The notes below the pieces were generated by a model. The model ran no database searches and was not told where the DNA came from. It saw only the letters and a list, made by a program, of their open reading frames with translations. A DNA stretch of 64,000 nt from Pseudochryseolinea flava (GTDB lineage: Bacteria; Bacteroidota; Bacteroidia; Cytophagales; Cyclobacteriaceae). This document shows positions 8,020 to 64,000 of the stretch, piece after piece; position 1 is the first letter of the stretch, and every line of letters starts with the position of its first letter. The stretch covers positions 186,001 to 250,000 of the forward strand of contig NZ_QMFY01000008.1 of the NCBI RefSeq assembly GCF_003286915.1. The letters are read 5' to 3'. Made by a program: the position numbers and the translations under genes.

Positions 8020-8487
8020 ATGAAACAGACTTCAGGCTCACTCTCGACCATCGGCTCACTCGTACAAATCAATCACAAACGTTTAGCGCACTATAAACGC
8101 TCTGCTGATAAGGCAAAAGAAATAGAACTGAAACTTCTGTTCATGCGCTACGCTGTACAATCACAAGGATTTGTAAATGTGTTAAGTCGTTGGATGATGG
8201 AGTACGGCGGGAAGGTTGCTCAACAGGAAGAGGGAGGATTGGCATCGGCATGGTCGCGCATCAGAGAAACGTTGAACTCTGATTCTCGTAACCATTTGCT
8301 GTCAAGAGCAGAAATGATGGAAAGTGAAGTGCTAAGAATTTATAAAACGATTCTATCCCTTACGATTTTACCATCACCAGTTCTTCGTGACATTCAAAGT
8401 CAGTACGATGAACTTGAAAACACGGCAAGGGTGTTAAAGTCACGCCAGCAAGAGAAAATTGTGAGAGGGTTACAGGCTGCAGCATAA
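8020..8487 (+). CDS. PA2169/DUF2383-like four-helix protein
   Basis: A 155-residue soluble, helical protein. It reads like the PA2169/DUF2383 four-helix family: an early helix with INHKRLAHYKRSADKAKEIELK, a second with FMRYAVQSQGFVNVLSRWM, then LLSRAEMMESEVLRIYKTILS and a C-terminal helix QYDELENTARVLKSRQQEK. The family is a ferritin-like bundle without an assigned activity and often sits with stress genes. It stands alone, 122 bp after the SDR gene. Confidence 0.65.
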   Translation: MKQTSGSLSTIGSLVQINHKRLAHYKRSADKAKEIELKLLFMRYAVQSQGFVNVLSRWMMEYGGKVAQQEEGGLASAWSRIRETLNSDSRNHLLSRAEMMESEVLRIYKTILSLTILPSPVLRDIQSQYDELENTARVLKSRQQEKIVRGLQAAA

Positions 8488-63524: not shown

Positions 63525-63595
63525 GGTCTCGTGGCCGAGCGGCTAGGCAGAGCTCTGCAAAAGCTTGTACAGCGGTTCGAATCCGCTCGAGACCT
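63525..63595 (+). tRNA. tRNA-Cys (GCA)
   Basis: A full cloverleaf: acceptor ggtctcg with cgagacc, D-arm gcc-gagcggcta-ggc, anticodon stem gagct/agctt around loop ctgcaaa with anticodon GCA at 63557-63559, and T-arm agcgg-ttcgaat-ccgct, discriminator U. The CCA end is not encoded. A terminator follows two bases later. Confidence 0.96.
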
Positions 63596-63596
63596 C

Positions 63597-63623
63597 AAAG
63601 TCATCCGAAAGGATGACTTTTTT
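63597..63623 (+). terminator. Terminator of tRNA-Cys
   Basis: aaagtcatcc at 63597-63606 pairs perfectly with ggatgacttt at 63611-63620 around a GAAA loop, then a T-run. Confidence 0.9.
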
Positions 63624-63680
63624 ATTTGCAAGAAATTCGCGGTTCGTCCCGATAGCTATCGGGACCGCTTGAGACCTCAA
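63621..63680. repeat. tRNA-Cys 3'-half remnant, tandem unit 1
   Basis: A 60-bp unit that starts with a tgcaa segment like the tRNA-Cys anticodon loop, then gcggttcg (T-arm left side), an 18-bp palindrome at 63647-63664, and ccgcttgagacctcaa (T-arm right side plus acceptor tail). It repeats almost exactly at 63682-63741. Confidence 0.8.
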
Positions 63681-63681
63681 T

Positions 63682-63741
63682 TTTATTTGCAAGAAATTCG
63701 CGGTTCGTCCCGATAGCTATCGGGACCGCTCAAGACCTCAA
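63682..63741. repeat. tRNA-Cys 3'-half remnant, tandem unit 2
   Basis: Second copy of the 60-bp unit, one base after the first, with two substitutions near the acceptor tail. Palindrome at 63708-63725. Confidence 0.8.
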
Positions 63742-63743
63742 GG

Positions 63744-63774
63744 AAAGTCAACTCAGGAATGGATTGACTTTTTT
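63744..63774 (+). terminator. Terminator-like hairpin behind unit 2
   Basis: aaagtcaa at 63744-63751 pairs with ttgacttt at 63764-63771 followed by T. Nearly the same sequence recurs at 63958-63988. Confidence 0.7.
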
Positions 63775-63797
63775 GTTTTAAGATCGGTTAAGGGATA

Positions 63798-63869
63798 GCT
63801 GCGAGCTTTGAGTTTCGAGCTGCGAGTTTTTAGAGGCTGCGAGGTTTGAGTTTCGAGCTGCGAGTTTTT
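63798..63869. repeat. 34-bp direct repeat pair
   Basis: 63798-63831 and 63836-63869 are the same 34 bases except for one C/G change. Each copy itself holds two gctgcgag-type words. No coding potential. Confidence 0.75.
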
Positions 63870-63897
63870 TTTTTCGTGGCTGAGGGCTATGCGAGTA

Positions 63898-63952
63898 CTC
63901 GTGGAAAAAGCTTGTGCAGTGGTTTCCCGATTGCTATCGGGACTTGAGACCT
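63898..63952 (+). pseudogene. tRNA-Cys pseudogene, internally deleted
   Basis: ctcgtgg (5' acceptor/junction of tRNA-Cys) is joined directly to aaaaagcttgtgcagtggtt (anticodon 3' arm, variable region, T-arm) so the D-arm and most of the anticodon arm are missing. The T-loop is replaced by the palindrome (one mismatch, 63925-63942), and the tail is cttgagacct. It cannot fold as a tRNA. Confidence 0.7.
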
Positions 63953-63957
63953 CGAGG

Positions 63958-63988
63958 AAGTCAACTCAGGAATGGGTTGACTTTTTTT
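63958..63988 (+). terminator. Terminator-like hairpin behind the tRNA pseudogene
   Basis: aagtcaac at 63958-63965 pairs with gttgactt at 63976-63983, then seven T. It is a duplicate of the hairpin at 63744-63774. Confidence 0.75.
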
Positions 63989-64000
63989 GTTTTGAAATTG

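Follow-up and report, generated by a model that had tools for sequence, protein, structure and literature searches.

Tandem tRNA-Cys tails with T-loop palindromes in Pseudochryseolinea flava and their probable relation to tRNA-linked GIY-YIG cassettes of Bacteroidota

SegB of phage T6 is a GIY-YIG homing endonuclease that cuts inside tRNA genes. In its description, the motif RAWTSGAAC is given for 23 of 83 sites, and a segment comprising tRNA and segB is amplified through the junction between the segB 3' end and tRNA sequence (PMC13096335). By our own reading, the motif is the reverse complement of the T-loop sequence GTTCSAWTY. Genomic islands located at tRNA 3' ends are also accompanied by duplicated tRNA 3' fragments, and displaced att fragments end with the full 3' end of the tRNA. 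Short dispersed palindromic hairpins that insert into RNA genes are known, and the double-hairpin elements of mitochondria are short dispersed hairpins inserted in genes. The REP or palindromic-unit repeats and the Rickettsia palindromic elements have the same character (PMC3733652 for the former).

The window, i.e. the whole stretch of 64,000 nucleotides that was analysed, contains an array of incomplete tRNA-Cys copies behind an intact tRNA-Cys gene, which itself has an S1-domain gene upstream. We hold with moderate confidence that this array, which has no ORF, descends from tRNA-homing GIY-YIG cassettes of Bacteroidota as a relic or a non-autonomous form; DNA cutting by such cassettes would be SegB-like. 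The tRNA gene and its terminator are followed by units 1 and 2, a terminator, a dispersed repeat, unit 3 and a last terminator, as given below with the basis of each assignment in brackets.

63525-63596, plus strand: intact tRNA-Cys gene, anticodon GCA (ARAGORN, Rfam)
63598-63623, plus strand: terminator of the tRNA-Cys gene, hairpin and T run (sequence)
63620-63680, plus strand: unit 1, with a possible anticodon-side trace, the T arm and the acceptor 3' strand (sequence, alignment)
63647-63664, no strand: palindrome TCCCGATAGCTATCGGGA in the T loop of unit 1 (sequence, hairpin fold)
63681-63741, plus strand: unit 2, tandem copy of unit 1 (sequence)
63708-63725, no strand: palindrome in the T loop of unit 2 (sequence)
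63745-63774, plus strand: terminator after unit 2 (sequence, fold)
63798-63869, no strand: dispersed repeat GCTGCGAGCTTTGAGTTTCGAGCTGCGAGTTTTT, two copies, not specific to the array system (sequence)
63874-63957, plus strand: unit 3, nearly full-length tRNA-Cys pseudogene with a T-loop palindrome (alignments)
63925-63942, no strand: palindrome TCCCGATTGCTATCGGGA in the T loop of unit 3 (sequence)
63958-63986, plus strand: terminator after unit 3 (sequence)

The first-pass annotation had described an intact tRNA-Cys gene followed by two 60-bp units and a longer third copy. The gene and the array are real, and units 1 and 2 measure 61 bp each, with 97% identity. The two nearly identical hairpins that it mentioned are the terminators after units 2 and 3, which share 91% identity over their common 35 nt (63745-63779 and 63958-63992). 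It had mistaken the motif ctcgtgg for a tRNA 5' half fused to the anticodon arm; the motif lies at 63899 within an alignment of unit 3 to tRNA-Cys that runs almost end to end from 63874 (TCGTGGCTGAGGGCTA...) and scores 42, against a maximum of 21 in five shuffles. What had been overlooked is an 18-nt palindrome that stands in place of the T loop in all three copies. In units 1 and 2 it takes the place of exactly nucleotides 58-60, changing GCGGTTCG-AAT-CCGC to GCGGTTCG-TCCCGATAGCTATCGGGA-CCGC, and the T loop of unit 3 is more degenerate (GTGGTT-palindrome-CTTGAG). With up to two mismatches the palindrome has three sites in the 64 kb, compared with a mean of 0.11 in shuffled sequences, none of 100 of which reached three. 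The T loop of the intact tRNA-Cys, GTTCGAATC at 63575, fits GTTCSAWTY in a motif search, and the motif is absent from units 1-3.

Beyond position 64000, where the first-pass annotation had proposed to count further units, one more clear tRNA-Cys copy was found 7.7 kb downstream of the tRNA (about 8269-8322 of the extended region L025, score 40), adjoining a dispersed GAGTTTCGAGCTGCGAG repeat; a second, weaker stretch near 1156 of L025 scored 20, no better than shuffles. The only Rfam match in L025 1-8600 was tRNA, with no group I intron RNA and no other family. The GCTGCGAGCTTTGAGTTTCGAGCTGCGAG repeat at 63798-63869 of the window is scattered through the P. flava genome and its congeners.

Behind the tRNA-Cys of four of five congeners (G148, G151, G074 and G127), no array was present in the 700 nt that were read. 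The fifth congener, G149, has tail-plus-terminator units of about 115 bp behind its tRNA-Cys, lacking this palindrome and any ORF, which run to a contig end and resume at the start of another contig. Closely similar tRNA-Cys units in a Cyclobacteriaceae MAG (L064) carry the palindrome. The G149 tandem units (L180, L181) contain an inverted copy of the anticodon arm that forms a fold-back, possibly a repair scar, and the L064 unit is similar. G074 carries a tRNA-Cys tail, with its T loop intact and a terminator, at a distance of 29.5 kb from its tRNA-Cys gene (L182, G074:C6:1567500-1569500).

The P. flava genome (G000, 6.54 Mb) has 14 distinct palindrome sites, 13 forward and one reverse only. 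Nine are derived from tRNAs, comprising three Cys, three Leu, one Arg and two in tRNA-Leu-like sequence with no called intact tRNA. Units away from tRNA-Cys had been named in the first-pass annotation as the sign of a general repeat family. The palindrome by itself does occur more widely, with five of its 14 sites outside tRNA sequence, but the partial tRNA copies match their local tRNA. Seven of the 42 tRNAs have a partial local copy of at least 35 bits, and at this threshold there are 12 same-locus and no cross-locus matches. The Cys and Arg-ACG copies score 31-32 bits (Cys 31), under the best cross-locus match of 33.7; the low score of the Cys copy arises because the hairpin interrupts the alignment. 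Some partial copies precede the intact tRNA (Arg-CCG, Met at L197 and Thr-GGT). GTTCSAWTY is present in 18 of the 39 distinct tRNAs of this genome. At L212 (G000:C43:408500-412500) there are sequences resembling tRNA-Leu that have long variable regions and palindromes in the D loop, and ARAGORN and Rfam found no intact tRNA at this locus.

The palindrome of the window also occurs in the two tRNA-Leu(CAA) cassettes of this genome, once exactly and once with one change. A full cassette follows an intact tRNA gene and consists of the tRNA terminator, a GIY-YIG gene of 80-110 aa, a tRNA remnant with a perfect hairpin in place of a loop, the tRNA 3' end and a terminator, and is often found in tandem. 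The stop codon of many cassettes directly adjoins tRNA sequence or falls inside it (judged by reading, uncounted). All seven small GIY-YIG domains of P. flava, a count that leaves out two proteins with long frames (598 and 459 aa), are associated with tRNAs; six are 34-508 nt behind a tRNA on the same strand, and the seventh belongs to an array of tRNA-Pro remnants that stands at the end of a contig. The genes located between a tRNA terminator and a remnant belong to Leu-CAA (two genes, encoding identical proteins), Pro-TGG, Glu and Met (C46), those of Glu and Met (C46) with an internal stop each, and one further gene follows another tRNA-Met with no remnant seen. Both cassette proteins that were scanned match PF01541, and the catalytic Y, G, R and E are invariant in 35 of 35 cassette proteins.

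The linkage to tRNAs extends beyond P. flava. In 23 genomes, this one included, 29 of 50 small GIY-YIG matches have a same-strand tRNA within 1000 nt upstream, compared with a chance expectation of 0.16 calculated from at least 821 tRNAs in 129 Mb with rounded genome sizes. The gap is 35-90 nt in 16 of the 29 and at most 508 nt. No tRNA was found beside long GIY-YIG genes at the 11 loci examined. For the other 21 small matches, the 1 kb upstream contains no tRNA; as judged by reading, four or more of these (L256, L263, L269 and L277) are nonetheless followed by tRNA remnants, and most others are not. In a sample of 61 genomes of the phylum, a tRNA lies upstream of 8 of 31 matches, among the 29 loci listed, and the remaining matches have lower HMM scores, a split that is partly circular because the HMM seeds are mostly tRNA-linked. 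Twenty further regions, a non-random sample picked by hand and partly for tandem pairs, have a tRNA on the ORF strand in 14 cases, downstream in at least two of them. As a check for introns, 20 GIY-YIG loci with no called upstream tRNA were compared with Rfam and gave no match. A relative in Sinorhizobium meliloti (plasmid collection) is located beside hflX, and ARAGORN called no tRNA in the surrounding 3.2 kb. The palindrome scans did not make use of the nuclease, yet 15 of their 83 loci, own-genome loci excluded, contain 19 GIY-YIG ORFs, all upstream on the same strand, and the nearest ORF ends between -12 and 111 nt from the matched GGTTCG.

Hairpins of at least 6 bp follow 25 of 33 tRNA-linked ORFs and 2 of 13 unlinked ORFs, at loci not selected by palindrome, and 17 of 52 intact tRNAs contain one as well; at a threshold of 8 bp, the corresponding values are 9 of 33, 2 of 13 and 1 of 52. 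No hairpin of at least 6 bp was present in the scanned stretch for 16 of 53 tRNA-linked ORFs, a set in which nine loci with no called upstream tRNA were classed as linked by reading of the remnant, five of them in the 33-ORF subset. As judged by reading, most Val, Met and Pro cassettes have the hairpin in the anticodon arm; in Asn it occupies the variable region, in Leu-CAA the D and T loops and in Glu of G006 the T loop. Since the hairpins of many isotypes lie in the anticodon, variable or D loop, a single T-loop motif is insufficient for all of them. A hairpin or remnant was not seen in the Asp (G003), Val (G005) and Met (L203) cassettes, the Asp and Val ones being those that lack the hairpin. 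The stem sequence differs among isotypes (TCCGCC, TGGCGC, CCCCGCC). Tandem growth is evident in L321 (G210:C34:5500-11500), where eight cassettes of about 364 bp each, all with a GIY-YIG gene and a hairpin tRNA, follow one another; the stem TCCGCC/GGCGGA after each ORF is constant and its loop is CTA, TAA or TTA.

A scan of named genomes for GGTTCG followed by the palindrome gave 92 matches in 80 loci among the matches listed, 63 of them in Bacteroidota (62 scored, one incomplete). These loci were selected by the T-loop palindrome and are unusable for statistics of hairpin position. Among the matches listed, 38 of the 62 scored in Bacteroidota have a tail like that of a same-strand tRNA 87-938 nt upstream, compared with none of 29 in other or unassigned phyla. 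The isotypes of the 38 tails, again among the matches listed, are Leu (17), Met (5), Ala (4), Cys (4), Gly (3), Val (2) and Pro, Asn and Tyr (one each). The exact pattern is uncommon, occurring in 4 of 148 genomes of the P. flava family and in none of the reversed controls. Replacement of the palindrome by AAT gave an ARAGORN tRNA call in 7 of 98 matches, a test of little use because most remnants are partial. Inverted palindrome centres had been considered as a trace of cruciform processing; this was dropped, as single mutations from AGCT explain the loop variants equally well, and the scan of the centres had fixed stems and is uninformative on stem conservation. A dense tRNA array of Chryseolinea (L036 / L055) has tRNA genes with palindromes in the D loop, in the T loop and inside a called tRNA-Gly; these palindrome-bearing genes are either dead or encode tRNAs with extra hairpins. 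One Chloroflexi MAG has a dispersed repeat of GTGGGTTCG and palindrome, after which TTAACCCACC comes in most copies, and no match to a tRNA was seen in the vicinity (L060, L062, L074, L079, L084, L085, L109, L110, L114 and L115).

The nuclease lineages largely track the tRNA isotype. A tree of 61 rows in nine isotype groups, built on 96-97 columns with many forks open, requires 14 isotype changes, whereas shuffled labels require 38.6 on average and none of 200 shuffles was as low. With one row per locus and tRNA-linked loci only (n = 35), 12 changes are required, compared with a shuffled mean of 21.7 and a minimum of 18 in 500. The Met, Asp and Asn rows need two to three changes and the two Pro rows are ungrouped. 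Loci named Chitinophaga, Pedobacter and Flavobacteriales fall in the Leu lineage together with P. flava. The isotype clades could equally have arisen by vertical inheritance combined with loss. Most of the ten pairs tested are under purifying selection, with dN/dS of 0.08-0.27 in seven, saturation in two and 1.36 in one. Cassettes are present or absent at orthologous tRNA loci. Among six genomes of the genus compared at tRNA-Val(TAC), G074 has two cassettes with a 363-bp period, G151 has one, G148 has an ORF-less hairpin remnant, and G127, G149 and P. flava have none; G150, outside this comparison, has a Val-type ORF too. This series of cassettes, an ORF-less remnant and empty loci is the best evidence that ORF-less tails like those of the window can derive from cassettes.

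The cassettes resemble SegB and the free-standing GIY-YIG endonucleases of T-even phages in the catalytic domain and the position of the gene beside tRNAs, and they have a junction similar to that between the nuclease 3' end and tRNA through which the SegB segment is amplified (PMC13096335). Unlike SegB, they are chromosomal, belong to Bacteroidota, encode only 80-110 aa, lie between a terminator and a hairpin tRNA remnant, and have palindromes in place of tRNA loops; that they cut DNA is proposed by analogy. When one cassette protein was compared by tblastn with 50,697 phage records, no match was obtained at E 1e-3, and three cassette proteins had no match in PHROGs. The case for kinship with SegB accordingly comes from the fold family and from behaviour. 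The profile search gave no PF01541 match on the window contig C47, the array of the window contains no nuclease ORF, and no nuclease gene was found beside any tRNA-Cys, so the link between the window and the cassettes is one of architecture and palindrome. We file the array of the window as an ORF-less relative of tRNA-linked GIY-YIG cassettes, which may work like SegB.

Each nuclease would cut its own tRNA gene, or alleles that lack the cassette. Repair would then join the ORF 3' end to tRNA sequence and copy the segment, as reported for T6 SegB, and in the downstream copy the hairpin would mark the site of cutting and destroy it. Arrays of tail and terminator like that of the window would be what is left once the ORF has been lost. 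The presumed target is kept in the intact upstream tRNAs, so that self-cutting would have to be weak or need something else.

The first-pass annotation was right that tRNA tail and terminator were repeatedly duplicated, and the process is recurrent. Plain tandem duplication followed by decay, with no nuclease involved and the palindromes as later chance insertions, is nevertheless unlikely. It fits the joint duplication of tails and terminators, the missing ORF in the window and the units of G149, which have neither palindrome nor ORF, but GIY-YIG ORFs adjoin such tails far above chance, and in 39 of the 62 scored Bacteroidota matches among those listed, which lie behind tRNAs of several isotypes, the palindrome is flanked by T-stem halves that still pair (4 or 5 of 5 pairs). 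It is rather improbable that the palindrome itself is mobile, in the manner of REP or Rickettsia palindromic elements, entering tRNA-derived loops and being tolerated only in non-functional copies. The same palindrome is found in many isotypes and loops and in non-tRNA repeats, the tRNA-Cys unit exists without it in G149 and with it in L064, and P. flava has three Y1-transposase-domain matches. However, none of the three is near a listed site (exact pattern only), the hairpin stems vary by isotype and the ORFs would be unexplained. The hairpins also differ from REP, Rickettsia and mitochondrial ones in their tie to tRNA-derived copies at most P. flava sites (9 of 14), in their loop positions and in their tie to nuclease cassettes.

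Two further explanations carry little weight. Hairpin tails that function as host RNAs, either tRNA-like decoys or 3' processing signals, would agree with the predicted fold, in which T stem and palindrome form one extended hairpin of -14.6 kcal/mol vs. -4.7 kcal/mol for the intact T arm, and with the constant stem and varying loop of the eight G210 units. Nevertheless this is very unlikely, as four of the five congeners lack the array in the 700 nt read behind tRNA-Cys, the units vary and decay, and no Rfam family other than tRNA was matched. Footprints of tyrosine-recombinase islands or phages integrating in the tRNA 3' end are the most improbable source, although the tails finish with a complete tRNA 3' end like displaced att fragments. 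Pfam found no integrase or casposase in nine downstream ORFs within about 13 kb, one of which had no match at all; a search for such a gene had been proposed in the first-pass annotation. The start points within the tRNA differ among the tail copies, unlike fixed att cores, and the array has very short tandem units and a loop hairpin, with GIY-YIG ORFs in related arrays in place of an integrase. The proposal of element footprints came close in pointing to action on the tRNA, but the indicated partner is a small GIY-YIG cassette.

If the cassette origin of the array is correct, many Bacteroidota would bear hidden minimal selfish elements on essential tRNA genes, one tRNA per nuclease lineage, as a chromosomal counterpart to the phage SegB amplification. 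No description of tRNA-linked GIY-YIG cassettes or of the palindrome was found among the matches listed from openly licensed PMC full text. More tentatively, the isotype-specific cassettes could represent a phylum-wide and apparently undescribed class of minimal mobile elements, for which the tRNA gene is the landing site and possibly the promoter. Their ends would be copies of the tRNA in which hairpins have taken over the loops, either as structural recognition sites or as scars that resist cleavage, and arrays that lack the ORF would be mobilised in trans. The cassette origin of the array, if correct, would also account for the recurrent tRNA pseudogene arrays and for palindromes at tRNA loops, and the cut site of the cognate nuclease would be predictable from the position of the hairpin in the remnant.
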